Source: a virus. Taken from it: DNA of 41,130 nucleotides. The stretch lies in IMG/VR virus record IMGVR_UViG_3300047548_000307, positions 1-41,130 of that record, one strand, 5' to 3'. Below are positions 1 through 19,537 of the stretch, piece by piece (position 1 is the first letter of the stretch; every line of letters begins with the position of its first letter). The position numbers were made by a program, and so were the translations under genes. The notes beneath the pieces were generated by a model. It saw only the letters and a program-made list of their open reading frames with translations, ran no database searches and had not been told where the DNA came from.

Positions 1-53
1 GGGTCGAGGGCTGGTGCCGTTCCGGTGCTGGGCTGGCGGGGCTGGGCATAAGT

Positions 54-89
54 GAACCCCGCCGGCTTGGGGGTTGTCCGGCGGGGTTC
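54..89 (-). terminator. Hairpin terminator at end of leftward gene
   Basis: A perfect 12-bp inverted repeat (54-65 with 78-89, arm GAACCCCGCCGG) encloses a 12-nt loop just past the stop codon of the leftward gene at 102-554. There is no clear U-tract, so termination is inferred from position and stem strength. Confidence 0.6.
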
Positions 90-101
90 TGTCGGTGACG
101 G

Positions 102-554
102 TCAGGCGGTTTCGTTGAGCAGGCTTTCGGGGTCGAAGTGGGCGAAGGATCGGCGGAGCAGGCTTGCCGGTGCCCGCATGTCGAGGCCGTTGAGGAGCAG
201 GCTGGCCAGACTGTAGGTGCCGTCGAGGTTGTGGGCCTCTTGGGCGTGTAGTCGGGCCATCGCCGGCATGTCTGACGCGTATTCGATCGCGGCGAGGGTT
301 GCGAGCGTTGGCACGTGTTCTAGGTCGGCGTTGGACATGGCGGCCAGAATCCCTATCAACGTCAGGCCGTCGAGCGTGTTGCGGCCGGCGCGGGCTAGCA
401 ACGCGTCGCGTAGCGGAATGTCGGTCAGGGTTTCGGAGAGGAGTGCCGGCGTTTCTACTTCGCCGGTCTGCTCGTAATGCTTGATTGCGTTTTCCCATGT
501 TTCCCAACGGTTTTTCCGTGTGGTGAGGGTTTCGGCGTCGAGTGTGGTTGTCAT
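102..554 (-). CDS. DUF4192-like protein
   Basis: A 150-residue soluble protein of unknown function. The second half, about residues 50-140, is helical, and its pattern (RDALLARAGRNTLDG near residue 50, then AMARLHAQEAHNLDGTYSLA followed by LLLNGLD) resembles the C-terminal part of DUF4192 proteins, which are common in actinobacteria and their phages. It is shorter than full cellular members. The ATG at 554 is preceded by a GGGAGG ribosome site inside a small hairpin (561-574). It is the only leftward gene at this end, facing the operon that starts at 726. The family assignment is by eye and moderately secure. Confidence 0.6.
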   Translation of the reverse strand: MTTTLDAETLTTRKNRWETWENAIKHYEQTGEVETPALLSETLTDIPLRDALLARAGRNTLDGLTLIGILAAMSNADLEHVPTLATLAAIEYASDMPAMARLHAQEAHNLDGTYSLASLLLNGLDMRAPASLLRRSFAHFDPESLLNETA

Positions 555-560
555 GTTGTG

Positions 561-591
561 AACCTCCCAAGGTTGCCGGCGGGGTTGCCGG
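561..591 (-). promoter_or_regulatory. Leader hairpins with embedded ribosome binding site
   Basis: Read on the minus strand, a 5-bp hairpin (576-580 with 587-591, arms CCGGC/GCCGG) is followed by a second one (561-565 with 570-574, arms AACCT/AGGTT, loop TGGG). The second contains the GGGAGG Shine-Dalgarno for the gene starting at 554. The same arrangement recurs before several rightward genes. A translational-control role is inferred. Confidence 0.55.
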
Positions 592-685
592 TGGCCTGAT
601 CGTCTCAGAATTCGGGGCCGGTTGCAAGGCTCGCCGGGCTTTCGGTGCTTGCGCGTGTCCGGGGCTTTCCCTTACCCTCTCCCTT

Positions 686-711
686 GGGTTCCCGTTGGGG
701 GTTCCCGTTGG
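686..711 (+). repeat. Tandem 13-bp direct repeat
   Basis: Two perfect back-to-back copies of GGGTTCCCGTTGG (686-698 and 699-711) lie directly upstream of the CCTTGGGAGG ribosome site of the gene starting at 726. They sit in the divergent intergenic region, where a regulator might bind. Confidence 0.7.
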
Positions 712-725
712 CCTTGGGAGGGCTT

Positions 726-1187
726 GTGGTTTCTACGTTTTCTGCCGTCGTCACGTTCACCGGTGAGGGTTCACCGTCTCGCGTTTTAGAGGTTTCCGGC
801 GAGCGGTCGGGCCTTTTCACCGTTCACGAATTGGCGCATGTTGCCGACGAATTCGAGTCTGCCGAGGGTAAGCCGTCGCCGTTGGACCGTGGCGACGGGT
901 ACACGGTTGTAACCCCGCTCCGTGTCGAGGAGCCGGCTACGGGCTTGCGCTGCTCGGCTTGTGGCAACACTTCGCAATTCGTCGTCGAGTATTCCTCGAC
1001 GTTCCTCGTCTCCGGTCGGGCTGGTGACGCGTATGAGCGTGACGGGTTGCTCGAGGAGTCCACTAGGGTCTCCGGTTGCTGGCGTTGCGGCTCGGAGTCT
1101 GTCGAGAGTGTTACGCACGAGTGCTGCCGTCACGAGTACGAGTCGGGTTGTTCGTGCTGCATGTCCGAGTGCGAAGTGTGGGCCTAG
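726..1187 (+). CDS. Cys-rich zinc-ribbon protein, first gene of rightward operon
   Basis: Unrecognised 153-residue protein. It has a CxxC pair at about residues 76/79 and another at 118/121, typical of a zinc ribbon, then a Cys/His-rich tail (residues 133-149). The GTG at 726 is chosen because CCTTGGGAGG, the ribosome-site motif shared by this operon, sits four bases upstream and no better start follows. Long open frames on the opposite strand here lack recognisable features. It is the first of four small Cys-rich proteins in the operon. A nucleic-acid- or protein-binding role is possible but unproven. Confidence 0.6.
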   Translation: MVSTFSAVVTFTGEGSPSRVLEVSGERSGLFTVHELAHVADEFESAEGKPSPLDRGDGYTVVTPLRVEEPATGLRCSACGNTSQFVVEYSSTFLVSGRAGDAYERDGLLEESTRVSGCWRCGSESVESVTHECCRHEYESGCSCCMSECEVWA

Positions 1188-1199
1188 GTTTAGCGGTTG

Positions 1200-1265
1200 C
1201 CGAGCCGGCTCCGGTCGGCTCGGTTTCCGGTGCAACTAGGCACCTAACAACCCATTGGGAGGGTT
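1200..1265 (+). promoter_or_regulatory. Three-hairpin leader A
   Basis: In the 82-nt gap 1188-1269, hairpin 1 (1200-1207 with 1216-1223, arms CCGAGCCG/CGGCTCGG, loop GCTCCGGT, then TTT) looks like an intrinsic terminator. Hairpin 2 pairs 1229-1233 with 1240-1244 (GGTGC/GCACC). Hairpin 3 pairs 1249-1253 with 1261-1265 (AACCC/GGGTT) around the ribosome site of the ATG at 1270. The arrangement matches leaders B and C. Confidence 0.65.
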
Positions 1266-1269
1266 ACAG

Positions 1270-1602
1270 ATGATGACGACAAATAGCGCGGCCGACGCTA
1301 CGGCTGGCGCTTGCACGTGGTCGGACTCGGCTCCGGCGTATGCCGAGCCGGTGGCCGACCTCTACCGTTGGTCGGTGAATTGCGAACACTTCCGGCCGTG
1401 GTGCGTGTTTCTCGATCTGTCGGGCCTGTCGGCCGACGTTTCGGGCGAGCCGGCGGCCGAGTGGCACGAGCCGGCCGACGGGCTTGGCATGCACGAATTG
1501 GCCCTACTTGGCGCGGCTCTCGAGGCTTACGCGTTGCGGCCGACCGACGTTACGGCGTGGATCCGCGATCTGGTTGCCGTCGAGATGAAGTGGGGGTTGT
1601 AA
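1270..1602 (+). CDS. Hypothetical acidic protein
   Basis: A 110-residue soluble, acidic, Trp-containing protein with no family I recognise. Two adjacent ATGs (1270 and 1273) follow TTGGGAGGG at ordinary spacing, and the first is used here. Its TAA stop overlaps the ATG of the next gene by one base, implying translational coupling. It is preceded by leader A, so its expression is probably set by that RNA structure. Confidence 0.65.
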   Translation: MMTTNSAADATAGACTWSDSAPAYAEPVADLYRWSVNCEHFRPWCVFLDLSGLSADVSGEPAAEWHEPADGLGMHELALLGAALEAYALRPTDVTAWIRDLVAVEMKWGL

Positions 1603-1712
1603 TGCCGACGCTATCGCTCCGGACACGTTGCGCCGAGTGTGGCCGTGTGTTCGATCTGCTCGACCCGACCGACTCGGCCGAGTGGGCCGGTGGCCACGAT
1701 TGCGAGGGTTAG
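1602..1712 (+). CDS. 36-residue zinc-knuckle-like protein
   Basis: A very small protein carrying CAECG near the N-terminus and a late HDC, so a CxxC...H.C zinc site is conceivable. It starts on TAATG, sharing one base with the previous stop, and has no separate ribosome site. The Cys/His pattern supports coding in this short frame. Function unknown. Confidence 0.5.
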   Translation: MPTLSLRTRCAECGRVFDLLDPTDSAEWAGGHDCEG

Positions 1713-1715
1713 GCC

Positions 1716-1859
1716 ATGCGCCGACGTACTCGCCTAACGCGTAGGGGCTGGGCCGTGTTGCTCGTGCTGGGCCTGCTCGCGTGGTATCTGCTCGCTGCTC
1801 ACCTCTACGCCGACTGTATGGCGGCCGGCGGAACGTGGGAGGTCTGCCGTTTCGGCTAG
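1716..1859 (+). CDS. 47-residue single-span membrane protein
   Basis: Begins with a strongly basic stretch (MRRRTRLTRR), followed by one hydrophobic segment (about residues 12-28) and a short tail with two Cys. Positive-inside topology predicts an external C-terminus. It starts three bases after the stop of the 36-residue protein. It ends the transcription unit before leader B. Function unknown. Confidence 0.55.
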   Translation: MRRRTRLTRRGWAVLLVLGLLAWYLLAAHLYADCMAAGGTWEVCRFG

Positions 1860-1870
1860 TCCGACGGTTG

Positions 1871-1944
1871 CCGGCGGGTTTCGTGCCCGCCGGTTTCCGC
1901 CGGTCTAGCGGGAAAGTCCCGCTACCGGTAACCCTTGGGAGGGT
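1871..1944 (+). promoter_or_regulatory. Three-hairpin leader B
   Basis: In the gap 1860-1948, hairpin 1 pairs 1871-1878 with 1886-1893 (CCGGCGGG/CCCGCCGG) and is followed by TTT. Hairpin 2 pairs 1906-1912 with 1918-1924 (TAGCGGG/CCCGCTA). Hairpin 3 pairs 1931-1935 with 1940-1944 (ACCCT/AGGGT, loop TGGG) and holds the GGGAGG before the ATG at 1949. The order is the same as in leaders A and C, with different stem sequences. Confidence 0.68.
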
Positions 1945-1948
1945 AACT

Positions 1949-2635
1949 ATGGAAACAAGTACGTCAGCGGCGCCGGGTACCGGTGCTGCAGCGGTCAGCT
2001 CACGCCTTCAGCGTGGGCTGGAGGTTTACACTGTCAGCATGTCAGCGGCGACGTTTGTCGCGGCCGTGAAGTCGGTTGCGTTGGCTGCCGACTCGAAGGC
2101 TGGCCTGCCTTTCGATCATGTCTCGGTGTCTATCGGCGACTGTGGCGGGGTCGAATTTGCGGCCACTGACCGCTACCGGCTGGCTGTAGCGTCGAGCGTT
2201 GATCACGTTTCGGAACCGGTGTCGGTTGCGCTTTTGCCGGTGAAGGAATTGGTTTCGTTTACTCGGTCGGTGAAGGTTCCGGCTCGAGGTCCGGTGGATC
2301 TGGTGACGTTTTCGTTTGGGACTGATGTCGTCTCGATCATGTTCGGAGGATCCTCGGTGTCGTGGAAGCGTTCCGATCTGCCGGACGTGGATAGGTTCCC
2401 GTCGTACCGGAAGCTGCTGGTCATGCCGGACCCGGTGTCTGGCGTGAACGTGTCGAATTGGAATCCGCAATTTCTTGCCGACGGGGCCGAAGCTTGCGGC
2501 CTTATGGGTAAGAAGAACACGGGTGTCCGGTTTAGTTTGTTCGTTCCCGACAAGCCGGCGCTACTGGAGCCGGTGGAGCCGTTGGAGGGTATGCGTTTCA
2601 GCTATCTGATTATGCCGGTCCGTATTCGCGGCTAG
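1949..2635 (+). CDS. dnaN-like: Shortened DnaN-like sliding clamp
   Basis: 228 residues, against about 370-400 for bacterial DNA polymerase III beta. Recognisable clamp elements are ATDRYRLAV (residues 72-80, the domain 2 signature), FPSYRKL (150-156, end of domain 2), NPQFLADG (172-179, middle of domain 3) and the C-terminal YLIMPVRI (219-226; compare YVVMPMRL in E. coli). Domain 1 and the first half of domain 3 appear missing, leaving about one and a half domains. Beta clamps encircle DNA and bind polymerases, ligase and MutS. No polymerase is seen in the window, so it may engage host partners or compete with the host clamp. ATG at 1949 is chosen on the strong GGGAGG; the in-frame ATG at 2039 is an alternative. 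Confidence 0.75.
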   Translation: METSTSAAPGTGAAAVSSRLQRGLEVYTVSMSAATFVAAVKSVALAADSKAGLPFDHVSVSIGDCGGVEFAATDRYRLAVASSVDHVSEPVSVALLPVKELVSFTRSVKVPARGPVDLVTFSFGTDVVSIMFGGSSVSWKRSDLPDVDRFPSYRKLLVMPDPVSGVNVSNWNPQFLADGAEACGLMGKKNTGVRFSLFVPDKPALLEPVEPLEGMRFSYLIMPVRIRG

Positions 2636-2646
2636 TGGTTTCCGTT

Positions 2647-2718
2647 CAGCACCGGCTCCGGTCGGTGCTGCTCGGTGACCGCTAGGCAGGGTGCCTAGGG
2701 TCTGACCCTTGGGAGGGT
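2647..2718 (+). promoter_or_regulatory. Three-hairpin leader C
   Basis: In the gap 2636-2722, hairpin 1 pairs 2647-2654 with 2663-2670 (CAGCACCG/CGGTGCTG) and has the same eight-base loop, GCTCCGGT, as leader A. Hairpin 2 pairs 2682-2688 with 2692-2698 (CTAGGCA/TGCCTAG). Hairpin 3 pairs 2705-2709 with 2714-2718 (ACCCT/AGGGT, loop TGGG) around the ribosome site for the ATG at 2723. Confidence 0.68.
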
Positions 2719-2722
2719 TGTT

Positions 2723-2920
2723 ATGGAAAGTGTAATTAGTCGGGAGTCGTTCGGCTGGGACGTTCACCTTGTCGAATATTCACCGTATCGGTGCGACGTG
2801 TTGGACGACGAGCGGCCGGTCCGGACGTTCCGTGGAGAGTGTGCGTACATGGACGCTACACGTTATGCAACTGATCTGGTTATGTCCCGCGCTTACGGTA
2901 CGCCGTTCAGGGGAGAGTGA
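2723..2920 (+). CDS. Hypothetical 65-residue protein
   Basis: Small soluble protein starting MESVISRESFGWDVHLVEYS, with no family recognised. The ATG lies six bases after GGGAGG. It is first in a run of five genes (2723-3920) that are spaced by four bases or overlap, ending with the Rpf-like enzyme, so leader C probably controls the whole run. Confidence 0.65.
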   Translation: MESVISRESFGWDVHLVEYSPYRCDVLDDERPVRTFRGECAYMDATRYATDLVMSRAYGTPFRGE

Positions 2921-2924
2921 CTCC

Positions 2925-3155
2925 GTGAGTATTCTCGAAAGTATGACCATTCCGGAAACGGTTTCTATCTGTTGCCGTGATTGCGGATCCGACGCCGGTC
3001 CGGCGTGGGTTCACGCCGACGACGGGTCACTAATGCACTGCGGCAGGTTCGCCCATTGGCGGGACTGCGAGTGCGGCACTGCCGGCTGTACGACGATTGT
3101 CTGCGGCAAGTGCCAAGCCGAGTTACCGGACTGCGAAAGTGACGTGACAGTATGA
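2925..3155 (+). CDS. Cys-rich zinc-binding-like protein
   Basis: 76 residues with about ten cysteines, including CCRDCG (residues 16-21), a CEC and later GC, and CGKC (60-63), plus several His. This is consistent with one or two structural zinc sites. The GTG at 2925 follows a GGGGAG ribosome site; an in-frame ATG at 2943 is an alternative. The last codons overlap the next gene (ATGA). Function unknown. Confidence 0.6.
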   Translation: MSILESMTIPETVSICCRDCGSDAGPAWVHADDGSLMHCGRFAHWRDCECGTAGCTTIVCGKCQAELPDCESDVTV

Positions 3156-3349
3156 CCGAGGGTATCTTTTGGTCGGAGCTTGCCGAGCTTACGCACGATG
3201 AGCAGGTGGAGAGGTTCGGGTTTTGCACATGCGAGGACGGCCCTAAAGTTTTCGAGGACTGCCCGACGTGCTACTGCGCCGAGTGCTGTCCGGAGGGACA
3301 CTGCGGCTGCGAACAATGCGCCGAGCCTTGCGTATGGGAGTGTGGCTAG
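3152..3349 (+). CDS. Very Cys-rich small protein (12 Cys in 65 residues)
   Basis: The N-terminal third is acidic and helical. From about residue 24 on there are twelve cysteines in closely spaced CxC, CxxC and CC pairs, a density suggesting several bound metal ions (zinc-cluster or metallothionein-like) or disulfides. There is no signal peptide, so metal binding is more likely. It is coupled by ATGA to the gene before, and its TAG overlaps the GTG of the gene after. No family recognised. Confidence 0.6.
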   Translation: MTEGIFWSELAELTHDEQVERFGFCTCEDGPKVFEDCPTCYCAECCPEGHCGCEQCAEPCVWECG

Positions 3350-3477
3350 TGCCTTACGTGCTGGTTATTCTCGCCGTGTTCACCGTTCCGGCCGCATTGG
3401 CGGAGGGAAACACTCCGGCGCTAGTGTTCGTGGCGCTTGTAGGTATTGTCGGTCTAATAGTTGGAGGTAAGGAATGA
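3349..3477 (+). CDS. 42-residue double-span membrane protein, holin-like
   Basis: Almost entirely hydrophobic, with two predicted membrane segments (about residues 3-18 and 24-39) separated by a short polar turn (EGNT). The GTG at 3349 overlaps the preceding TAG, with GGGAG eight bases upstream. Its TGA overlaps the ATG of the Rpf-like muralytic gene. A tiny two-span membrane protein directly before a cell-wall enzyme suggests a holin-like role, but the enzyme has its own signal peptide, so this is inference. Confidence 0.5.
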   Translation: MPYVLVILAVFTVPAALAEGNTPALVFVALVGIVGLIVGGKE

Positions 3478-3920
3478 AACGAGCCGCTTTAGCGGCCGGC
3501 GTGGCGGGTCTAGCATTCATGCTAGGCCCGTCGCTGGCGCCGGTACCGGTTGCCCCGGTGCCGGTGCCGGCGTTGCCAGCTAACGTGTCTGACGCTGCGA
3601 CATTCTTAGGGTTCGGTCACCCTTCGGAAGCTGCTAAGCTTTTCACGTTTGAGGATCTGCCGAAGGCTTGGCAACGGCTGGCCTTGTGTGAATCATCGGG
3701 CCGGCCGGCTGTCCGTGGCGGTAAGCGCGGGCAATACCGGGGCCTTTTCCAAATCGAATTTCCCCGCACGTGGGTCGCCCACGGTGGCGAACTGCATGAC
3801 CCGCCTTCAGCGGCGAACGTGTCTGTGCAGTATGGTGTGGCTATGAATATTTGGAAGGATCGTGGATCCTCACCGTGGCCGCATTGTGGTAAGTATCTTC
3901 GTGAAGTTTATGGCAGGTGA
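3474..3920 (+). CDS. Secreted Rpf/transglycosylase-like muralytic enzyme
   Basis: 148 residues. An N-terminal signal-like segment (MKRAALAAGVAGLAFML) is followed by a Pro/Val linker and then, from residue 66, a resuscitation-promoting-factor/transglycosylase-like domain. WQRLALCESSG resembles the family's W.rlAqCESgG with catalytic Glu (E73), YRGLFQI resembles YyGGLQF, and WPHCG near the C-terminus supplies the second disulfide Cys (C72/C138). Rpf enzymes cleave actinobacterial peptidoglycan and wake dormant cells. It is last in the rightward operon and followed by a strong terminator. It could act in lysis, entry or host resuscitation. A separate endolysin occurs at 13204-13641. Confidence 0.8.
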   Translation: MKRAALAAGVAGLAFMLGPSLAPVPVAPVPVPALPANVSDAATFLGFGHPSEAAKLFTFEDLPKAWQRLALCESSGRPAVRGGKRGQYRGLFQIEFPRTWVAHGGELHDPPSAANVSVQYGVAMNIWKDRGSSPWPHCGKYLREVYGR

Positions 3921-3970
3921 TACCCGCCTTCAGCGGCGGCGTGTCGTTTGACTGCCAGCTATGATCTGGT

Positions 3971-4105
3971 TTAGTCTTCCTCTACCGGCTCGGTGAGGGG
4001 AAGCACTGGGCCAGTACCTCCCAAGGGTGAAGCCCCCGCTTCGGCGGGGGCTTCTTTATGTTCGGTGAACAGTTTCACATACCCGTCCCACCAGTTCGAT
4101 GTCAT
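3971..4105 (-). CDS. Possible 44-residue protein overlapping the convergent terminator
   Basis: Open frame beginning MTSNWWDGYVKLFTEHKEAP, with its ATG overlapping the previous stop as ATGA, the pattern used throughout this leftward operon. The middle of the frame is formed by the GC-rich terminator hairpin (4029-4054) and a second long hairpin (about 3976-4003), so the frame may be partly accidental. It would be the last gene of the early operon. Function unknown. Confidence 0.42.
   Translation of the reverse strand: MTSNWWDGYVKLFTEHKEAPAEAGASPLGGTGPVLPLTEPVEED
4029..4057 (+). terminator. Intrinsic terminator of rightward operon
   Basis: Perfect 11-bp stem (4029-4039 with 4044-4054) capped by a TTCG tetraloop and followed by TTT on the plus strand. 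It lies about 110 bp past the Rpf-like gene, between converging operons. On the minus strand there is no U-tract. Confidence 0.85.
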
Positions 4106-4275
4106 ATGTTTTCCGTATTTTCTGGAACTGGAAGTTCAATCGCAATGCTAAGTTCATATGCAACTTCACGAAGTAACTGTTTCGCTTGATCGCAAACGTG
4201 TGCCGGTGGTTCAACTGTTGACCAGTAGTTTATGTAGTGACGCACCCAGTACAGAGCTTCATCTCGTTCAGACAT
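4102..4275 (-). CDS. Hypothetical 57-residue protein
   Basis: Starts MSERDEALYWVRHYINYWS and continues as an amphipathic helical protein (DQAKQLLREVAYELSIAIEL). The ATG overlaps the last eight bases of the upstream gene and its stop overlaps the next ATG, fitting the coupled operon. The composition is protein-like throughout. No family recognised. Confidence 0.65.
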   Translation of the reverse strand: MSERDEALYWVRHYINYWSTVEPPAHVCDQAKQLLREVAYELSIAIELPVPENTENI

Positions 4276-4726
4276 GGAACTTGTTCAACTTCTCCTGCGG
4301 CACTGCATACACCGGCGGGCGACGACGATCTGGTGTGTCCAGATATTCGTCCTTCTTCGCATCATGCCCAAGCATCCAACCGATCACGTTGTAGGTCGGC
4401 ATGCCACCAGTGACCAGCACATACTTGCGATCCGGATCCGCATCGGTGAACACCAGCAACCTTCCGGTTAGGTGTTTCGTGAACTTCACATCGATGTTCG
4501 GTTTGATGTCGACACCGTTGTGTCCGAAGTCTGATGCCCAATAGATGCCGAGGTGTTTCGCAACCGCCATCTCAGCACCGGCACCGTCGATGTCTAGCAG
4601 GATCCGTTCCCACGGGTTCATGGTTTGGATGCCACGCATCTGCCGGTTGTTCGCTGCGGATGCGTAGCGTGCGAGTGCTGTGTTGATGACCGCTACGATC
4701 TCGTGCTTCTCGAGTGTTATGACCAC
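4268..4726 (-). CDS. Hypothetical protein, possibly PD-(D/E)XK-like
   Basis: 152 residues. GAEMAVAKHLG (about residues 49-59), then GVDIKPNIDVKFT (about 71-83), then alternating strands ending in YAVPQEKLNKF, resemble a restriction-endonuclease-like layout seen in phage proteins of unknown function: a Glu in a first helix, an acidic strand and a downstream Lys. I cannot confirm a catalytic triad. The GTG at 4726 is preceded by AGGTGGA and overlaps the sigma-like gene by ten bases. Confidence 0.6.
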   Translation of the reverse strand: MVITLEKHEIVAVINTALARYASAANNRQMRGIQTMNPWERILLDIDGAGAEMAVAKHLGIYWASDFGHNGVDIKPNIDVKFTKHLTGRLLVFTDADPDRKYVLVTGGMPTYNVIGWMLGHDAKKDEYLDTPDRRRPPVYAVPQEKLNKFHV

Positions 4727-5355
4727 GGTGTCGGTCCACCTAACTGTCGGTTGATGAACCGGAGAAGTTCTTTCACCCGCCGTTCCGCCGTGGACTTACT
4801 AATGTTCCATGCTTGTGCGAGCTGTTCGAATGTCATCTCTTGCGTGTAGTACTGTTCCAGCATCTGCTGATCTTCAGTAGAAAGTTTGTCGTAGATGCGG
4901 CGAATGTCCACGATCATGGCAATCAGGTTGCCACCTTCGCTCGGTGCCGACGGTCGCTTCGGCTGTCCGTCGTCAACGTGTTCGACGATTAGTTCGGCTG
5001 TGGTTTCGAAGTTGATCGCTGCGGGCATGAGTTCAGCGATCATTGCCTGGTCGTAGAAGAATTCGTCACCGGTTTTGTAGCCGAGTTTCTCGGCTTTCTC
5101 TTTCCGTGCGAATCGTTCTGCATACCTACGCATGCGTGCCATGATGCGGCGTGCAGTCCACCGTGTCTGCTCCCTGCCTTCAACGTACGCCTCAAGCAGT
5201 TCTTCAGCCAGCTTCGGGTGGGTGAGGATGTACACGTGGATCTCTTGGATCAGATCGTTAGTGTCAACGTAGCCGTCGAACTGTCGTGCCACTGATCTTG
5301 CTGCCGGTGCAGCGAGGTCGCGTAGGTGTTCTTCGGGGTCAGTGTGTTTCATCAT
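4717..5355 (-). CDS. Sigma-factor-like transcription regulator
   Basis: 212 residues from the ATG pair at 5355/5352. DTNDLIQEIHVYILTHP (about residues 31-47) resembles sigma-70 region 2, and the C-terminal LSTEDQQMLEQYYTQEMTFE with QLAQAWNISKSTAERRVKELL looks like a region 4 helix-turn-helix. The lengths suit a small alternative sigma or sigma-like factor that would direct host RNA polymerase to phage promoters. Region 2 is only weakly matched, so an HTH regulator is the alternative. The gene overlaps both neighbours within the early operon. Confidence 0.65.
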   Translation of the reverse strand: MMKHTDPEEHLRDLAAPAARSVARQFDGYVDTNDLIQEIHVYILTHPKLAEELLEAYVEGREQTRWTARRIMARMRRYAERFARKEKAEKLGYKTGDEFFYDQAMIAELMPAAINFETTAELIVEHVDDGQPKRPSAPSEGGNLIAMIVDIRRIYDKLSTEDQQMLEQYYTQEMTFEQLAQAWNISKSTAERRVKELLRFINRQLGGPTPWS

Positions 5356-5479
5356 CCGGCCATTCGAGGTAGGTGTCCATGTTTTCGAATGCTTTGAATC
5401 CGATAACCGCACCAAGTAAGGAGAAGGTGCTTGCTACGGCTATGAACCAGATGATGGTTCGCTTTACTTTTCCGGCCAC
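5339..5479 (-). CDS. 46-residue single-span membrane protein
   Basis: A GTG at 5479 with GGAG upstream opens a frame reading basic N-terminus, hydrophobic segment (IIWFIAVASTFSLLGAVIGF, residues 9-28), then an acidic tail (LEWPDDETH). It overlaps the ends of the Nmad1-like gene and the start of the sigma-like gene. The membrane-protein pattern makes coding likely. Function unknown. Confidence 0.6.
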   Translation of the reverse strand: MAGKVKRTIIWFIAVASTFSLLGAVIGFKAFENMDTYLEWPDDETH

Positions 5480-5949
5480 TTGTTCTCCAATACCATGATC
5501 GCTATGGCTGAATAGTTCAGTAGGTCGATGAATGAGTCACGTAACGATTCGTGATTCGGGTCGATGTCGTTGTCGATGAGGTTGTTGATGCGTGCCACCT
5601 TGTCCCACATGCGGACACGTAGCCCGTTGAGTGGTCCGCCTGGTGAGCGGCTGATGTTAGTCGGACCGTAGTCTTCATGCTTGCGCAGCAGAAGGTTGCC
5701 GGCTTCGTCCATCACATCCCATACGTCGAATACGAACTGGGACTTGGCGACGTCGCCAGTTGTCTTTGCAGTGGCAGATCGGGTATCAGTACTTGCAGCA
5801 AGAATCCTTCTGGCGTTTGCGACACGCTTTGAATGTTCAGCCCGATCGACTGCAGCATCTCCGCGACCCGCTCCAGAAGTTCCCGTTCCATTGTTCTCAC
5901 TGCTCGCTCTCGTATAGTCGTATGTCATTCCGTTGTCCCACTTATTCAT
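5464..5949 (-). CDS. Nmad1/DUF1599-like protein
   Basis: 161 residues from the ATG at 5949. The C-terminal ~83 residues match the DUF1599 (nucleotide modification associated domain 1) pattern: LLLRKHEDYGPTNI, PLNGLRVRMWDKVARINNLI, then ESLRDSFIDLLNYSAIAI. The family is found in phages near nucleotide-metabolism or base-modification genes and is distantly MazG-like. The first half (about residues 20-75) is low-complexity Ser/Gly/Ala/Thr. This is exactly where another frame looks coding (5712-5891), so the true start may be the ATG at 5712, which overlaps that frame's TGA as TGATG. Confidence 0.72.
   Translation of the reverse strand: MNKWDNGMTYDYTRASSENNGTGTSGAGRGDAAVDRAEHSKRVANARRILAASTDTRSATAKTTGDVAKSQFVFDVWDVMDEAGNLLLRKHEDYGPTNISRSPGGPLNGLRVRMWDKVARINNLIDNDIDPNHESLRDSFIDLLNYSAIAIMVLENKWPEK
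5712..5891 (-). CDS. Possible out-of-frame small gene inside the Nmad1-like frame
   Basis: Frame starting MERELLERVAEMLQSIGLNI and continuing with a strand-rich stretch ending in LLQVLIPDLP. It has helical and beta patterning and G/C-ending codons (CTG, GAG, GTC), whereas the overlapping frame is low-complexity. It ends on TGATG at a Met of the Nmad1-like protein, a common coupling arrangement. A GTG at 5900 is an alternative start. No strong ribosome site is visible. Confidence 0.45.
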   Translation of the reverse strand: MERELLERVAEMLQSIGLNIQSVSQTPEGFLLQVLIPDLPLQRQLATSPSPSSYSTYGM

Positions 5950-6604
5950 GGTCAATTCCGATCCTCTTTCTGAGTCCGTCGATTCCTTCAGCCATTGCAA
6001 TACTGTTGACGTCGCTGCCCGCTGGCAGCGTGACGAGTTGTGCCTGCTCAACTTCCGCCAGAATTTTCTGCGCCAACTCCATGCCTGGGTTTGCTGCATC
6101 AGCACTACCTTTGTCGTCGTTGTCTGCGAGAATGTAAACATTCCGGTATCCGCTGAATAGGCGACTGAAGTGTGGTCGCCATGCTTTCGCACCGGGAACT
6201 CCAACAGAAGGCAGCAGTTGGGAAGCGATGATTGTGTCCAGTTCGCCCTCGCAGATGGCAACTGAGTCCGTTGCAGTGTGAAGGTCAATAGCGTTGAATA
6301 GCCGAGCCGGTTGGTGTAGTGGTGCCATGTATTTCGGCCCCAGTTCTCCATCGATTCGACGGAATTTGAATCCGGTGACGCCATGTACCACGCGGTAGGG
6401 TATAGATAGCCAGCCGATGAATTGTGCATGTGCTGGGTCACAGTCTGCGGGTACGGTTCCGAGGAGATGCTTTTGGCACAGCTCTCTTGTGAATCCTCGG
6501 CTGACCAAATACTCCACGGTTTGGCTGTTCGCCTTGTGATGGTAGGTCAACGCCAGCTCGTGCAGCGATGTCAGTCGCTCTTGCGTGAGCAGCACGGAAA
6601 TCAC
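5942..6604 (-). CDS. DnaG-type primase, TOPRIM part
   Basis: 220 residues. SLHELALTYHH and YLVSRGFTRELC (about residues 13-43) resemble the DnaG segment before the catalytic core. VAICEGELDTI holds the TOPRIM Glu (E119) and ILADNDDKG the DxD (D161/D163). It would synthesise RNA primers for replication. It lacks the zinc-binding domain, which is in the overlapping upstream gene, and the C-terminal helicase-binding domain. The start is GTG at 6604, or GTG at 6595, which is better spaced from AGAAGGA. The end overlaps the ATG at 5949. Confidence 0.8.
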   Translation of the reverse strand: MISVLLTQERLTSLHELALTYHHKANSQTVEYLVSRGFTRELCQKHLLGTVPADCDPAHAQFIGWLSIPYRVVHGVTGFKFRRIDGELGPKYMAPLHQPARLFNAIDLHTATDSVAICEGELDTIIASQLLPSVGVPGAKAWRPHFSRLFSGYRNVYILADNDDKGSADAANPGMELAQKILAEVEQAQLVTLPAGSDVNSIAMAEGIDGLRKRIGIDHE

Positions 6605-6830
6605 ATCCTTCTTTCCACATGATCAAACTGTAGGCGTCGCCACCGATTCCACATGTGTGGCAGAAGAACAAGCCTGTGTCTTCTGGGTCTGTTGTCATCA
6701 CGGCGGACCGGTGGCGGTCGCCGTGGAATGGGCATCTGACTGATCGTCCTATGCCTGTCCGGATCTCACCGCCGTAATGTTCGAGTACTGCGATGAGAAG
6801 TTGGGCTTTACTTCCAGTCATCTGCGGCAT
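6438..6830 (-). CDS. DnaG-type primase, CHC2 zinc-finger part
   Basis: 130 residues. CPFH (C33/H36) and FFCHTCGIGGD (C57/C60) form the CHC2 zinc ribbon that reads template sequence for DnaG. DFRAAHARATDIAARAGVDLP follows as in DnaG. The C-terminal ~45 residues are basic (KRAVPKASPRNRTRRL) and overlap the TOPRIM gene for 167 nt in another frame, so the primase is split over two genes. The start is ATG at 6830 or 6821, overlapping the end of the small membrane-protein gene. Confidence 0.8.
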   Translation of the reverse strand: MPQMTGSKAQLLIAVLEHYGGEIRTGIGRSVRCPFHGDRHRSAVMTTDPEDTGLFFCHTCGIGGDAYSLIMWKEGCDFRAAHARATDIAARAGVDLPSQGEQPNRGVFGQPRIHKRAVPKASPRNRTRRL

Positions 6831-6996
6831 CGATACGGTCCCAAAGGGAGTCCCAGTATTCGATGTTGGACTTGTATTCTTTCGACCAACGTCTTGCCCA
6901 GATACGTTCCATGATGATGTCCCGGATGGTGACGATGAGGAAGATCACGCCGCCGGCTGCACCGGCTGTGATGAAGATGTTGATTGCGGTGTTCAC
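6808..6996 (-). CDS. 62-residue single-span membrane protein
   Basis: One N-terminal hydrophobic segment (about residues 5-24, INIFITAGAAGGVIFLIVTI) is followed by a charged, Trp-rich helix. The GTG at 6996 overlaps the upstream stop (GTGA) and the end overlaps the CHC2 gene. Function unknown. It may tether a replication protein to the membrane, but nothing in the sequence proves that. Confidence 0.65.
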   Translation of the reverse strand: MNTAINIFITAGAAGGVIFLIVTIRDIIMERIWARRWSKEYKSNIEYWDSLWDRIDAADDWK

Positions 6997-7361
6997 TTGT
7001 TTACCCTCTCCATGAACGTGTCCAGTTCCATGATGACGTACGCTTTGCCGGTGCCGTGGTTGCGTCGTTTCGCCACCACAATGGGGACAACTTCGACGGT
7101 TGCTTTGCGGGCTACTGCCCAGTTCGCTGCTTCAATGTTTGCTTCGTTGATCCACGGTCCCGGTTTGAACGATTGTTCGTTCTTCGCTTCAACGATGAGG
7201 ACAGTTTTGCCGTCGATGTACACCATCACATCACCTTCGTCGTGTTTGCCGGCGAGGCGTAGACGTTCGGCTACGAGTTGGTGGCTGCGGAAGTAGTCAA
7301 GGAGGTCCAGTTCCCACTGGGCACCTTTACGCTTATTCTTAGTCGCGTTAGATGTAGTCAT
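6993..7361 (-). CDS. Holliday-junction-resolvase-like PD-(D/E)XK nuclease
   Basis: 122 residues. KRKGAQWELDLLDYF (E17), HDEGDVMV (D44) and LIVEAKNE (E58 x K60) form the catalytic E...D...ExK arrangement of archaeal Hjc-type resolvases. These resolve four-way junctions or trim replication intermediates. The ATG at 7361 is preceded by AAGGA at good spacing; an upstream in-frame start is poorer. It overlaps the 3' end of the preceding gene. It sits between helicase and primase genes, as expected for a DNA-metabolism nuclease. Confidence 0.75.
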   Translation of the reverse strand: MTTSNATKNKRKGAQWELDLLDYFRSHQLVAERLRLAGKHDEGDVMVYIDGKTVLIVEAKNEQSFKPGPWINEANIEAANWAVARKATVEVVPIVVAKRRNHGTGKAYVIMELDTFMERVNK

Positions 7362-7728
7362 GCCAGTCATCCTTACCGAGACCATCTAATGCTGCGATGA
7401 TGTTTTCACGAACAGATGCAATGCGTTCTTTCACTCGTTCTTCTATGTAGTCTTCGGTGCGTAAACGCACATCTTTCTCGTCTTCGCATTCACGGCAAAG
7501 ATATGTTGCGTATGCCCAGTCGACATTGGTTGTGAACATCTGGAGCTTTTCATCAAATCTATATTCGACCATGAACTGATTGATCTGTGGACCTGAGAAC
7601 TTTGCTGGCATATGTTCACATCCCATGCCACCGTTGGCGATCAGCATGGTCTTTACGACCATGTCTTGAGGGTCTTCCATTTCAACGTACTGTCCAGCAC
7701 TTGGGCCGTTAGCAAGCCGGTACTTCAT
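7348..7728 (-). CDS. Hypothetical protein
   Basis: 126 residues. It begins MKYRLANGPSAGQYVEMEDP and has a C-terminal charged helix (YIEERVKERIASVRENIIAA). A CEH and a later CREC could form a metal site. The ATG overlaps the helicase stop as ATGA, with AGGAAG upstream. Not recognised. Confidence 0.7.
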   Translation of the reverse strand: MKYRLANGPSAGQYVEMEDPQDMVVKTMLIANGGMGCEHMPAKFSGPQINQFMVEYRFDEKLQMFTTNVDWAYATYLCRECEDEKDVRLRTEDYIEERVKERIASVRENIIAALDGLGKDDWHDYI

Positions 7729-8543
7729 GCGATAACTTCCTGTAGGACTGGGCGTGTTTTGATGTCACGGATCTGTACACGTGACGGATCCACTGCGAGG
7801 GTGACGAAGTGGCTGGCGTCTGCCGAGTGTGAACCGAAACGGTTCTTCACTGCTGCCACGTTCAAACTCCCATACTCCGGATTCATTGCAATGGACAGGA
7901 TCATACTTGGTAGTTGGCTTGCTTTGCCGAGGATTGCTCGGCGTGGTGCCGGCATTGTTGCATCTGCTTGAATGTTTTCCGACATGTGTGTCAATGCCAG
8001 AACGCATGCACCGGTCTTACGTGCAACGTGATGCAGCTCTGCCATGATGGCACGAATACCGGACCATTCTTCACCGGTTACCGATACACAGTTCATCAGG
8101 TTGTCGATCACAATCAACTGTGGTGCCGTGCCGTACACTTCGCCGTAGGCAAGGATCTCGAGTTCGATAGTGTCCATGTCGGGTGACGGGTCGTACACCC
8201 ATGTGATGTGTGATGCTTTCTCGCGGATCATTGGGTCGAAGAAGTTTGGATCCCTGTCCAGTTGTGACTCAACCTGGTTCTGTTCATAGTTCGTCAATGC
8301 TGCGCAGGTGCGGAACATTTGTGTGATCGGGTCGGTGTCTGCCGAGAAGTACAAGGTTGGAACACCTGACTTGATGGCGTACACCAAAGCCATGAGTGAC
8401 TTTCCACTGTTTGGTTGACCGGCGATCAGCACCAGTTGTGACTGGCGGAACTTCATCCCTTGTTCCTCGAGCGTGTGCCACACGAGTGGGAGTGGTTTCG
8501 CTGAGGATGCGGTTGAATGCACAGCTTGGAGAAGACTAAGCAA
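7725..8543 (-). CDS. DnaB-like RecA-fold ATPase (replicative helicase)
   Basis: About 272 residues. GQPNSGKS (42-49) is Walker A, QLIVIDNLMN is Walker B, and CVLALTHMSE is the sensor strand, as in the C-terminal ATPase domain of DnaB/RepA/KaiC-type proteins. The DnaB N-terminal domain is absent, as in several actinophage helicases. It would unwind DNA with the split primase. The start is uncertain: TTG at 8543 overlaps the end of whiB by a few bases; GTG shortly downstream is possible. Confidence 0.75.
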   Translation of the reverse strand: MLSLLQAVHSTASSAKPLPLVWHTLEEQGMKFRQSQLVLIAGQPNSGKSLMALVYAIKSGVPTLYFSADTDPITQMFRTCAALTNYEQNQVESQLDRDPNFFDPMIREKASHITWVYDPSPDMDTIELEILAYGEVYGTAPQLIVIDNLMNCVSVTGEEWSGIRAIMAELHHVARKTGACVLALTHMSENIQADATMPAPRRAILGKASQLPSMILSIAMNPEYGSLNVAAVKNRFGSHSADASHFVTLAVDPSRVQIRDIKTRPVLQEVIA

Positions 8544-8817
8544 TGTCGTAAATCTTTCTGGCCCAAATGTTGTGGCGGCGTCGGATCTTTGCCCGTTCCG
8601 CACTTGTGGTTGCAGCCCAGTAGTAGTGCTGCTCGTTGTAGATCGCCCAGTTCAAGCATTCGTCGAACAGTGGGCAGCCGAGGCATGCTTTCTTGATTGT
8701 TTCCTCATGCAGCCGGTCGATCTTGTTTGTTTCGTAGCAGTAGAAGTCCAGCCCAAGTGTTGCGCATGGTTCCATGCCGGTGTAGGCGGGCAGCCTTGTT
8801 GGTCTGCCCGCCGCCAC
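8536..8817 (-). CDS. whiB-like: WhiB-family Fe-S transcription factor
   Basis: 93 residues from the GTG at 8817. The four expected cluster ligands are C18, C45 and C48 (CLGC) and C54, with the spacing of WhiB proteins, followed by a basic tail (TTSAERAKIRRR). WhiB proteins bind a 4Fe-4S cluster and the housekeeping sigma factor, and occur only in actinobacteria and their phages, which strongly indicates the host. The usual G(V/I)WGG turn is replaced by YYWAA, an unusual change in the sigma-binding region. A hairpin (8785-8812) begins just after the start codon. Confidence 0.85.
   Translation of the reverse strand: MAAGRPTRLPAYTGMEPCATLGLDFYCYETNKIDRLHEETIKKACLGCPLFDECLNWAIYNEQHYYWAATTSAERAKIRRRHNIWARKIYDIA
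8785..8812 (-). promoter_or_regulatory. Hairpin at the whiB start
   Basis: Perfect 9-bp inverted repeat (GGCGGGCAG/CTGCCCGCC, loop of 10) five bases after the proposed GTG. It could act as an attenuator or limit initiation. Regulation is inferred. Confidence 0.5.
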
Positions 8818-8825
8818 CGCTTGTG

Positions 8826-9230
8826 CTATCCGTTGGCTCGGAAGTCGCACTCGTCGCTCCTTCTGGCGCATGCATAGAATGCGCGGTACGGCTTGCCGGT
8901 CTTCTTCGAGACACCAGCCGCAACGAACTTGGCTGGCTCGCCATGCTTACACACCACGGTGTCTTCACTCACGATGGACGCACCGAGGTTGGCAGCAACC
9001 TCAACTGGTGTGAGCGGAACCGCTGATGCTGGCACGTGTGTTGTGCGTGCAGCAGATGCTGGGTCTCCGACCAGTGCCTTCGCGAACTGTTCGACAACCT
9101 GGTCTGCTGCTTCCGGACCGAGAGCATCGATCAGCTTCACGTTGAACGCTGCCCAGTCTTCTGCGTTGATGACAGCGATCAGCCCGTTGGGGAGTTTGCC
9201 GCTGACTTGGAAATAGCCGGTGTCGGCCAT
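8826..9230 (-). CDS. Possible ssDNA-associated zinc-finger protein
   Basis: 134 residues. The N-terminal half (about residues 5-55) holds GYFQVSGKLPNGLIAVINAE and helices, then a Pro/Ala linker. The C-terminal region has CKHGE, SKKTGKPYRAFYACARRSDE and CDF, a four-Cys ribbon like those following ssDNA- or replication-associated modules in actinophages. Encoded one base downstream of the Cas4-like exonuclease, it may be a recombination or ssDNA partner. The ATG has GAGAGG upstream. Confidence 0.6.
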   Translation of the reverse strand: MADTGYFQVSGKLPNGLIAVINAEDWAAFNVKLIDALGPEAADQVVEQFAKALVGDPASAARTTHVPASAVPLTPVEVAANLGASIVSEDTVVCKHGEPAKFVAAGVSKKTGKPYRAFYACARRSDECDFRANG

Positions 9231-9231
9231 G

Positions 9232-10182
9232 TTAGTTACCTCTCTGTTTGATGTTCAGCCGGACTGTGTCTTTGCCGGTCTGTACACGTGGGACGAAACC
9301 CAGGAGTTGTTCTACCTGCTTCTCGTCGATGGATGTGCGAGCCTTCACCGTTGACCACGAAATGTCGATGCCGCTGAAAGTTTCGCCTGTGATCCCTTCG
9401 AACGTCTCCTTCAAGCCGTCACGCTTCTCGGTGAGTTCGCTGATCTGGTTATTCAGTTGTAGATAGTGGAGTGCGTTGGCGTCGACAGCAGCATCATCAA
9501 TGATGGTGGTGGCGAGCCTTTCCGCTTTTCCCCTACCCTTACACCCGATTTCCCCGGTTTCGTCGTAGAAGTCGCAGTAGTTGCGGCAGAACGACGGATC
9601 CTTTTCGGGATCTGGTGCAGTCTTGGATTGCTTGATTGCTTCCAGCCAGCCGAGGGCTTCCATTGCAATCTCGCTCGAGTACGGTTCGGTGTGAACCTTC
9701 ACGTCACGTTCATCCCCGTCGCGTGCAATAGCGACAAGGCTGACCGTGTTGACTTTGTGTCCGTTTTGTTCCATCAGGAACCCGTAGGTGTGGACCTGCC
9801 AGCGTTGCTGCTGCGATGGGAAGTAGTTCAGGTTCTTCACCTTCACTGTCTTCCAGTCCACAACGGCACCTATCTCCGGAATCCACAGGTCGATGTGGGC
9901 TTTCATGCCGTTCCATGCAACTTCGGATTCGACAACGAACCGTGTGCCGGTTGGGTCTGCCGCCTCGAGTGCATCTTCAATGGATGCGTGGATGGCGGTT
10001 CCCATGACGGCAGCCAACTTCAGTGTGCTGTCGTTGGTTTTCTCGTAGCCGTTGATGCGGTACCAGACTTTGCGACTGCACGAGCCGAGTTCGCTGGGGC
10101 CGATCTCGGTTTGATTAGAGCGTGGTCTGGCTTCGTCCCGCTGCCGAAGAACATCCAGCAGCAGTTGTCTGATGTCTGTCAT
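9232..10182 (-). CDS. Cas4/RecB-like exonuclease with Fe-S Cys motif
   Basis: 316 residues. SCSRKVWY (C35) and a distal Cys trio near residues 200-215 (CRNYC and EIGC) suit a 4Fe-4S cluster. MGTAIHASIED (H65), HIDLWI (D98) and VVDWKTVK (D109/K111) are the RecB-nuclease catalytic motifs. A C-terminal coiled region follows. It would degrade or resect DNA ends in phage recombination or host genome breakdown. The ATG overlaps the preceding stop as ATGA. Confidence 0.82.
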   Translation of the reverse strand: MTDIRQLLLDVLRQRDEARPRSNQTEIGPSELGSCSRKVWYRINGYEKTNDSTLKLAAVMGTAIHASIEDALEAADPTGTRFVVESEVAWNGMKAHIDLWIPEIGAVVDWKTVKVKNLNYFPSQQQRWQVHTYGFLMEQNGHKVNTVSLVAIARDGDERDVKVHTEPYSSEIAMEALGWLEAIKQSKTAPDPEKDPSFCRNYCDFYDETGEIGCKGRGKAERLATTIIDDAAVDANALHYLQLNNQISELTEKRDGLKETFEGITGETFSGIDISWSTVKARTSIDEKQVEQLLGFVPRVQTGKDTVRLNIKQRGN

Positions 10183-10313
10183 TCACTCCCCCATAGGGCT
10201 GTTTCTTTCAACATGTAGTGCAAGCTGCACATGGTTTCCCTGTACCCGAGTTTGGTTTGCGGCTGATCGCAGCCGTCTATAGTGCAGGTAGGTGTGCTGT
10301 TTTCTTCAGCCAT
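10179..10313 (-). CDS. 44-residue zinc-finger-like protein
   Basis: Starts MAEENSTPTCTIDGCDQPQT and continues to CSLHY. The C...C...C..H spacing suggests a small zinc finger, like short actinophage proteins with a CxxxxC...CxxH pattern. The ATG overlaps the end of the methyltransferase-like gene and its stop overlaps the exonuclease start. Function unknown. Confidence 0.6.
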   Translation of the reverse strand: MAEENSTPTCTIDGCDQPQTKLGYRETMCSLHYMLKETALWGSE

Positions 10314-10867
10314 ACCTGGTATCCAATCTCGAGTGTTTCGTAGTAGTCGTGGCACAGGCTGAGGAATGCTTTCACTCCATGCTCTGGCCGTTCCCACCGT
10401 GACAGTTCTGGTTTCCACCCGTAGTCGTCGAAGGCGATGATGCCACCGACTTTTAGATCCTGGAATGCGTTCAACCCGTCGGTCAGTACATTGACTGCCT
10501 TATGGTCACCGTCAATGTAGGCGAAGTCCCATTCGTAGCATCCACCGTATTCCATGAACCATTCGTCACTGGTCATCTTGCGTCTCCACACTGCACCTTG
10601 CCACGTCTTGTTGCGTGCAAGGTATGTGAGTTCCACATGTTCCCAATCAAGAACGTCATGTTCCGGCTCGTCGGATCCTTGCCATGTATCAACGTCAACA
10701 AGGAATGCGTCTTCGTGGTGGACGAGGATGTTGTCGTACATCCATGCTGATGCGTCACCAGTGAACGCTCCGATCTGCAGCATCTGTACCGGTTGACCTG
10801 CTAGGTCTAGTACATACTTTTCGAAGTTGTGCTGCTGGGTCCGGAACCAGTTCGGATAGGTGGTCAT
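10277..10867 (-). CDS. Class I SAM-dependent methyltransferase-like protein
   Basis: 196 residues. LQIGAFTGDASAWM (about residues 30-43) is the SAM-binding motif I, AFLVDVDTW is motif II, and FAYIDGDHKAVNV plus KVGGIIAFDDYG are the later strand motifs of the Methyltransf_24-type family. The substrate is unknown; these often modify sugars, lipids or small molecules. It shares an operon with a glycosyltransferase, suggesting surface or DNA glycan modification. The ATG at 10867 overlaps the upstream stop (ATGA). Confidence 0.72.
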   Translation of the reverse strand: MTTYPNWFRTQQHNFEKYVLDLAGQPVQMLQIGAFTGDASAWMYDNILVHHEDAFLVDVDTWQGSDEPEHDVLDWEHVELTYLARNKTWQGAVWRRKMTSDEWFMEYGGCYEWDFAYIDGDHKAVNVLTDGLNAFQDLKVGGIIAFDDYGWKPELSRWERPEHGVKAFLSLCHDYYETLEIGYQVWLKKTAHLPAL

Positions 10868-10986
10868 GCTTGCTCACCGCCACGGGCAGCGGCCTCATGT
10901 TCAGCAAGCCATTGTTCCAACTGTGGATTGTCAAACCCACAGGCATACAGCCATATTTCGTTTGTTGTCGGCGTGTAATCGCTCAT
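10864..10986 (-). CDS. Hypothetical 40-residue protein
   Basis: Reads MSDYTPTTNEIWLYACGFDN then an acidic helix ending ARGGEQA. Both ends overlap neighbouring genes by ATGA/TCAT junctions. Its last residues (AARGGEQA) are nearly identical to those of the next gene upstream, owing to a 30-bp direct repeat. Function unknown. Confidence 0.6.
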   Translation of the reverse strand: MSDYTPTTNEIWLYACGFDNPQLEQWLAEHEAAARGGEQA

Positions 10987-11012
10987 GCCTGCTCACCGCC
11001 ACGGGCAGCGGC
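10864..11012. repeat. Pair of 30-bp direct repeats at gene junctions
   Basis: 10864-10893 and 10983-11012 agree at 29 of 30 bases (mismatch at 10870/10989) and are 119 bp apart. Each covers the last codons of one small gene and the ATG of the next, suggesting a local duplication. Confidence 0.8.
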
Positions 11013-11249
11013 GATGGCTCGCTGGACTACGGGATGCGTCACCGCGACTGGTCCTTCGCTGACGAACTCGTTAGTGACTCGCTGTGCTGCCTTCTCCCGC
11101 TCGTCGGCACGAATCTCAGCTTCAAAGGCAGCCAGCCATAGGTCGAATTCAGCAAGCATGCTCTCTCGTAAGGTGTTATCAAAATCGTCGTATGCGTACT
11201 CTGCCCTTATTTGTTGGGTTGTTCGAGTTACGCCCTGAATAGACTTCAC
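10983..11249 (-). CDS. Hypothetical helical protein
   Basis: 88 residues, largely helical and charged (FDLWLAAFEAEIRADEREKA), ending AARGGEQA like its downstream neighbour. The GTG at 11249 overlaps the previous TGA (GTGA). The pattern resembles small actinophage proteins of unknown function. Confidence 0.65.
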   Translation of the reverse strand: MKSIQGVTRTTQQIRAEYAYDDFDNTLRESMLAEFDLWLAAFEAEIRADEREKAAQRVTNEFVSEGPVAVTHPVVQRAIAAARGGEQA

Positions 11250-11443
11250 CGTTGCTCACCTTTGACAGCAGCTCTGACATCGCTCAACAGGACATAACCG
11301 TAGGGGTCCGGTTCGCACGTACGGGCGATCCGTTCAAGGATGTCGATGGTGACGGTGTCTTCTTTGCCACCGAGTTTGTCGCAGATGCAGTTGCTGAGAT
11401 CGTCTTCACGATCGTCAGTTAGGCACCATTCATCATGCTTCAC
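11246..11443 (-). CDS. Hypothetical 65-residue Cys-containing protein
   Basis: Starts MKHDEWCLTDDREDDLSNCI and has a C-terminal helical part (DILERIARTCEPD). Four Cys might bind a metal, but spacing is irregular. The GTG at 11443 follows GGGAGG inside the small AACCT/AGGTT hairpin (11447-11460), the same ribosome-site structure as in the 0-3 kb operons. Confidence 0.65.
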   Translation of the reverse strand: MKHDEWCLTDDREDDLSNCICDKLGGKEDTVTIDILERIARTCEPDPYGYVLLSDVRAAVKGEQR

Positions 11444-11837
11444 GTGAACCTCCCGAGGTTATGCCGATGTCGTCAGGTCCATTCAACTGCAGATTGGACA
11501 CGTAGTCAACGACATATTCAGAAATCTTTGCAGGCCCATCAATAGGTCGCCATGTCATCATCAAACCAGGCAGCTTACCTTCGCCCGCTGGGTACAGTTT
11601 GATCAACCGATCGACCAGTAGGTAGTTGTCGTGCATGAAGTTGACGACATCAAGTCGTGCTGTGTCTGCAGCAGTGGATATGTATGGCATGTCGTAGAAC
11701 AGGCTGATGCCGCCTGCTGCTGGGATGCGTCGTTCGGAGTCGTAGACGAAGCCCATGACGGTGGAGTGTGGGCGGATGGATTGTGTGCAGTGTTCAGCCA
11801 TCTGTGCGTAGATGGTGTCCAATTCAGGTGTTTTCAC
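11433..11837 (-). CDS. Hypothetical protein
   Basis: About 134 residues from the GTG at 11837, which has AAGGA five bases upstream; an ATG at 11852 is the alternative. Mixed alpha/beta composition with no recognised motif; STVMGFVYDSERRIP and GLMMTWRPIDGPA are distinctive stretches. It overlaps both neighbours. Confidence 0.65.
   Translation of the reverse strand: MKTPELDTIYAQMAEHCTQSIRPHSTVMGFVYDSERRIPAAGGISLFYDMPYISTAADTARLDVVNFMHDNYLLVDRLIKLYPAGEGKLPGLMMTWRPIDGPAKISEYVVDYVSNLQLNGPDDIGITSGGSREA
11447..11460 (-). promoter_or_regulatory. Ribosome-site hairpin
   Basis: Minus-strand AACCT/AGGTT stem (11456-11460 with 11447-11451) with CGGG loop contains the GGGAGG of the gene starting at 11443. 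It matches the SD-hairpin class at 561-574, with one loop change. Confidence 0.6.
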
Positions 11838-12591: not shown

Positions 12592-12607
12592 GTGCAAATC
12601 GTTGCAC
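12592..12607. promoter_or_regulatory. 16-bp palindrome at start of early operon
   Basis: Perfect dyad GTGCAA-ATCG-TTGCAC directly next to the start codon of the glycosyltransferase gene. It could be an operator for the WhiB or another regulator, or a start-codon-proximal RNA hairpin. Confidence 0.5.
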
Positions 12608-12854: not shown

Positions 12855-12902
12855 AAAATAAGCCCCCCAAGAGGACCGGACTTACCGATCCCCGAGGGGG
12901 GC
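12855..12902 (-). terminator. Late operon terminator
   Basis: Minus-strand hairpin: outer 7-bp stem (12896-12902 with 12862-12868, GCCCCCC/GGGGGGC), short internal loop, nine inner pairs and a TAAGT loop, then TTATTTT. It lies about 50 bp past the last late gene. Confidence 0.85.
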
Positions 12903-12952
12903 ATGAAAGTGTCTCAGAATGCCGCTGTGGGCTTTCTAGAGGTATGTGGTGG

Positions 12953-15885: not shown

Positions 15886-15921
15886 TCAGCACATGTCCAG
15901 GTGCGTCCCTAGGTAGCGAGG

Positions 15922-16167: not shown

Positions 16168-16175
16168 GATGATCC

Positions 16176-18971: not shown

Positions 18972-18982
18972 TAGTTCGCCCC

Positions 18983-19536: not shown

Positions 19537-19537
19537 G

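Follow-up and report, generated by a model that had tools for sequence, protein, structure and literature searches.

Phage T7 has repeated intercistronic hairpins in its early operon, which are RNase III sites. The closest layouts described in other phages are the SAS/ESAS motifs of cluster K, in which a 13 bp box, GGGATAGGAGCCC, lies only a few bases from the start codon and the ESAS consists of 17 bp inverted repeats whose sequence is conserved between copies; the authors of that work found "little support" for RNA hairpins at these sites (PMC3203893). In phage Adephagia the ESAS repeats hold SigA-like promoters (PMC11373665). In cluster EF Microbacterium phages, a box, GGGAAAGGACCCC, before the starts is accompanied by an upstream element of weak conservation with GTAGAG at its centre (PMC7302621). 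The SAS/ESAS motifs have lacked an explanation since 2011. Here we describe three intercistronic leaders, A, B and C, of an uncultured actinobacterial-type phage, which are real, structured, conserved in relatives and new in form.

The window, i.e. the whole stretch of DNA analysed, is a virus record of 41,130 bases. Its structural genes run leftward (portal-like gene at 36933-38639, terminase at 38651-40555), and a short rightward operon occupies approximately 726-3920. The terminator scan called a clear terminator-like site at 4029-4054, beyond the end of this operon. The terminase matched those of Streptomyces phages at about 45% identity and those of many IMG/VR contigs at 75-82%, and the phage group carrying the leaders is uncultured, with many members in IMG/VR. 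When positions 1-20000 were compared with named phages at the DNA level, no match was found. The first rightward gene has a GTG start at 726 and, like the genes described below, lies on the plus strand. Leader A precedes gA (1270..1602, 110 aa), a homologue of which stands after the class-2 leaders (see below) in many relatives; the search of named phages gave no match for gA, and no homologue was found in bacterial and archaeal genomes. The gene after leader B (1949..2635) encodes a protein of 228 aa that resembles the sliding clamp of DNA polymerase (PHROG 947, E 3e-8; Pfam PF02767, E 0.0027, which does not reach the curated cut-off), and this short clamp-like protein had no relative in named phages or viral contigs. 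The gene after leader C (2723..2920) encodes 65 aa, for which no family was found. The G+C content of positions 1-4000 is 61.7% and that of the rest of the window 51-56%. In addition, gA is only 40-53% identical to its homologues in relatives whose terminase is 75-82% identical. Given this higher G+C content and the low identity of gA in comparison to the terminase, a different lineage may be the source of the rightward module. We also observed an imperfect 27-nt inverted repeat at 3490-3545, inside the transglycosylase (Rpf-like) gene 3474-3920 at its 5' end; a box copy, CCCTTGGGAGGTA, on the minus strand at 4015-4027, which adjoins the terminator hairpin 4029-4054 and has no obvious gene downstream; and one tiled stretch of the rightward operon that folds with a z-score of -8.5.

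The first-pass annotation of this locus had described three gaps with three hairpins each, in the same order, and uninterrupted Watson-Crick stems were found for all of them on the plus strand. Leader A contains hairpin 1 (1200-1223) with an 8 bp stem, hairpin 2 (1229..1244) with a 5 bp stem and a box with the Shine-Dalgarno sequence GGGAGG (1249..1265), in which a 5 bp hairpin is possible. In leader B the stems of hairpin 1 (1871-1893) and hairpin 2 (1906..1924) are both of 8 bp, and the third hairpin is formed by the box ACCCTTGGGAGGGT at 1931..1944. Leader C has an 8 bp hairpin 1 (2647-2670), a 7 bp hairpin 2 (2682..2698) and the same box, ACCCTTGGGAGGGT, as its third hairpin at 2705..2718. 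The loop letters GCTCCGGT are common to hairpin 1 of A and C, whose arms differ, just as had been noted. When each gap was shuffled with its dinucleotides preserved, the three-hairpin layout appeared in 0/2000 (A), 4/2000 (B) and 0/2000 (C) sequences. The folding z-scores of A, B and C were -5.6, -4.0 and -4.8 (-4.5, -4.4 and -4.3 with other ends), and 38 control regions of the window, each upstream of an ORF start on the minus strand, had a mean of -0.4 and a minimum of -3.5. The box has the window consensus CC[C/A]TTGGGAGGGT, with start-associated copies at 561-2718. All hairpin 3 stems derive from this one conserved box; thus, the third hairpin is present in A, B and C as claimed but provides no independent sign of kept pairing.

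In the predicted folds, hairpin 1 forms the core of an interrupted hairpin that is longer (20-26 bp) and whose 5' arm starts at the upstream gene's stop codon. This long state extends over 1180..1244 in leader A (with the UAG at 1185-1187), 1855..1909 in leader B (UAG at 1857-1859) and 2632..2685 in leader C (UAG at 2633-2635; 22 bp in three blocks of 9, 3 and 10), all on the plus strand. It is the minimum-energy fold of A and C; for B the result depends on where the ends are set, one choice giving the long state the lowest energy and another placing it at most 1.4 kcal/mol from the best fold. Such predicted stems correspond to about two double-stranded turns, the length of an RNase III site. 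The long hairpin and hairpin 2 draw on the same bases, the latter taking part of the 3' arm of the former: hairpin 2 excludes the base of the long hairpin in A, overlaps its 3' arm in B and has 2682-2685 in common with it in C. When the stop-codon arm was blocked in the fold, hairpin 2 appeared in 3/3 window leaders. Thus, hairpins 1 and 2 exist as the first-pass annotation had it, but since hairpin 1 belongs to a longer hairpin that includes the upstream UAG and competes with hairpin 2, they are not simply arranged in series. The stop codon and the loop centre are 26.5, 25.0 and 25.5 nt apart in A, B and C, respectively, and this distance lies between 23 and 27 nt in 45/46 leaders (29.5 nt in the remaining one), with ranges of 25.5-26.5 nt in class 2, to which the exception belongs, and 23.0-25.0 nt in class 3.

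These classes were obtained by searching the operons of relatives for the conserved box before start codons. In relatives with a terminase of about 75-82% identity, this operon likewise has two or three leaders that share the design. Their boxes are ACCTACAGAAA or ACCTAGNGAAA, and every box match falls on the strand that the rightward operon uses. Class 1 comprises 21 distinct promoter-proximal leaders, with a DUF4192-like gene downstream in the member tested. These leaders have the box and a single hairpin but not the long one, and they contain a -10 element in which A and T are invariant; no other class has a recognisable promoter. The 20 leaders of class 2 and the 23 leaders of class 3 have a long hairpin, hairpin 2 and the box; their mean folding z-scores were -5.0 and -4.5, respectively. 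The genes downstream of class 3 leaders differ, and class 2 leaders stand before gA or, in several phages, an unrelated gene. Since the class-2 leader of L013, L015 and L032 precedes a gene unrelated to gA, the leader is not bound to one coding sequence. When leaders of sister phages were folded, the long hairpin was found in several of them, and hairpin 2 in most once the 5' arm was blocked. In the window itself, comparison with class-1 leaders allowed us to read a possible promoter of the rightward operon at 649..678 on the plus strand (TTGCGC, 18 nt, TACCCT), which the promoter scan did not call. The first rightward gene is preceded by the box variant GCCTTGGGAGGGC (711..723, plus strand) in a leader with no significant folding structure, and a perfect 13-nt tandem duplication, GGGTTCCCGTTGG, is located at 686-711, directly 5' of that box. 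On the minus strand, the divergent DUF4192 gene may have a class-1-type leader at 561..604, with the box variant ACCTTGGGAGGTT at 561-573 and a putative hairpin at 576-591 that was read by eye from the letters.

The proposal that the RNA structure is under selection is strongly supported in the relatives by compensatory changes, by the pairing of the outer stem and by the ratio of G.U to A.C. In the hairpin core of class 2, 96.4% of cells were paired (at most 70.7% when the arms were slid) and 34 cells had changed on both sides, in comparison to 9.2 in shuffles. The corresponding values were 96.5% (slid at most 52.6%) and 28 vs 12.7 for class 3, and 91.0% (slid at most 68.6%) and 21 vs 8.7 for class 1; in each class the number of both-side changes exceeded every one of 500 shuffles. 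The outer stem of class 3, which includes the stop codon, was paired in 272/272 cells (slid at most 48.2%), with 27 both-side changes vs 7.5. For the outer arms of class 2 (10 distinct arm pairs), cognate pairing had a mean of -10.3 kcal/mol, a value reached by 0/5000 permutations. Slides, shuffles and permutations do not remove common descent, and these cell counts overstate the number of independent events because changes are shared by descent; moreover, outer pairs are broken in some relatives (L009r, L010r). Across the three structures 112 G.U cells were counted vs 21 A.C cells, and this excess points to selection on the RNA strand and not on the DNA. Selection on RNA is also indicated by the loops, since the same hairpin is capped by UUCG/UCCG or by GAGA/GCAA/GGAA in different relatives. 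The competing hairpin 2 is supported as well, in class 3 columns, class 2 arms, the window leaders and the sister leaders.

The covariance model R1, built from class 3 leaders, found beyond its own members class-2 leaders and sister-phage leaders with other boxes, some of them weakly (L026 5594-5686, E 0.00025; L019 2600-2692, E 0.0006; others up to E 0.5). R1 also matched its own members on the reverse strand, as expected for near-palindromic stems, and low scores are therefore no proof. Leaders A-C were not matched by R1 at E values up to 10, so their kinship rests on the position before gA and on architecture. A search of Rfam with positions 1-4300 of the window gave nothing at the curated threshold, and the five sub-threshold matches all fell within 3957-4157, none of them at the leaders. 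The exact box ACCCTTGGGAGGGT before ATG occurred in 19 stretches of viral contigs, nearly all with a single copy, and the hairpin layout was not seen there; one of these contigs, L087, has one hairpin and the box but otherwise bears no similarity to the window. We take A, B and C to be members or close analogues of one phage family's repeated two-state intercistronic RNA element, the structure and competition of which are backed by covariation and folding.

We tentatively favour, at somewhat less than an even chance, the reading that the long hairpin of this two-state element is most likely a processing or insulating signal, a function that we infer. State 1 would be the long interrupted hairpin anchored at the upstream stop codon, and state 2 the upper core (hairpin 1) together with hairpin 2, which combines the 3' arm of state 1 with the stretch that precedes the ribosome-binding box. 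The long hairpin could be cut by host RNase III, by analogy with the T7 early operon. Either the cut or a ribosome that terminates at the stop codon would free the 3' arm to refold into hairpin 2, and the next cistron would then begin with a hairpin followed by the fixed Shine-Dalgarno box. This same hairpin-plus-box arrangement is seen in the promoter-proximal class-1 leaders of relatives, and processing or insulation is favoured because the long hairpin is what the interior leaders have in addition. A further proposal, that the ribosome finishing the upstream gene selects the stop-anchored long hairpin or the leader hairpin and so sets processing or expression according to upstream translation, seems to us rather doubtful. 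A purely passive role, as stabilisers of mRNA 3' or 5' ends or as insulation against read-on without cutting, would suit a long hairpin that starts at the stop codon and a hairpin 2 that adjoins the box, but this by itself leaves the retention of two competing folds unexplained, and we consider it very improbable.

The two states could also act as a translation-sensing switch, in which a terminating ribosome covers the base of the long hairpin and gives hairpin 2, the long hairpin forms otherwise, and the choice alters expression of the next gene. In A-C and in both classes the base pairs include or adjoin the stop codon, hairpin 2 can form in the window leaders and most sister leaders once the 5' arm is blocked, and the stop-to-loop distance is near-constant. 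However, the predicted accessibility of the Shine-Dalgarno sequence does not differ consistently between the states, and class-1 leaders have the hairpin and box though they have no upstream gene, so that we regard such a switch as unlikely. Nor did the gated translation suggested by the first-pass annotation turn out to be general, the Shine-Dalgarno sequence not being especially hidden in predicted folds: its mean unpaired probability was 0.84 in class 3, 0.58 in class 2 and 0.34 in class 1, and 0.48, 0.36 and 0.36 in A, B and C, with 0.37 for the window controls. Since the box is predicted to be open in most relatives, no clear influence of the two states on initiation can be seen. We rejected a general gating role of hairpin 3, as most relatives keep the sequence of the box and not its pairing; in class 1, as an exception, the box stem is partly covarying. 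The same annotation had read hairpin 1 as an intrinsic terminator or attenuator that ends part of the transcripts between genes, and strong GC-rich hairpins directly after stop codons would suit this. Yet the scan that called 4029-4054 called none of A, B and C, their hairpin 1 has no U-rich terminator tail, and in relatives the 3' flank CUUUA is replaced by CUCAA, CUUAG or CUAAG with the pairing mostly kept, which makes termination improbable. Finally, the leaders could be SAS/ESAS-type DNA sites for promoters and a regulator, joined to a conserved ribosome-binding box. The shared layout of inverted repeat, ribosome-site box, large gaps and non-structural genes speaks for this (PMC3203893, PMC7302621), but A-C are without a promoter-like site, their arms differ between copies, and the G.U excess and pair-preserving changes contrast with the little support for RNA hairpins seen in cluster K; we therefore find this reading very unlikely.

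Like the RNase III sites of T7, the leaders are repeated hairpins between a stop codon and the next ribosome-binding site; we know of no two-state design with a fixed box in T7. They also resemble translation-coupled attenuators in that the position of the ribosome could select between mutually exclusive hairpins, but here there is no leader peptide and no terminator tail, and a complete gene's stop codon would act as the sensor. The earlier statement that no such element had been described needs qualification, as the SAS/ESAS motifs share the general layout (PMC3203893; PMC7302621), whereas the RNA form seen here was not found described; the literature covered, outside which most subscription papers fall, yielded SAS/ESAS only. 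Common to the leaders and the cluster K motifs are a ribosome-site box with complementary ends (GGG...CCC there, CCC...GGG in the window) and inverted repeats just 5' of the box, in gaps of more than 50 bp before non-structural genes. As with SAS/ESAS, the box is limited to such genes (561-2718 in the window, the rightward-operon strand in relatives). The box itself differs from that of cluster K, being CC[C/A]TTGGGAGGGT in the window and ACCTACAGAAA or ACCTAGNGAAA in relatives, and in place of conserved ESAS repeats the window has imperfect inverted repeats of 23-29 nt with arms differing among A, B and C. In contrast to the ESAS of Adephagia, no promoter-like site was found by the scan in leaders A-C. 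The 16 regions upstream of SAS matches in Anaya folded with a mean z-score of -1.7, vs -5.0 for class 2 and -4.5 for class 3, the stretches having been cut differently. The SAS/ESAS-like motifs of cluster EF likewise combine a box with an upstream element, and the accessible part of that report mentions no RNA structure (PMC7302621). If the two states are used, the element would be a compact, repeated means to link or separate neighbouring phage genes. This leader family joins an SAS/ESAS-like layout to base pairing whose preservation in relatives is clear at the RNA level, which provides a testable RNA-based model.
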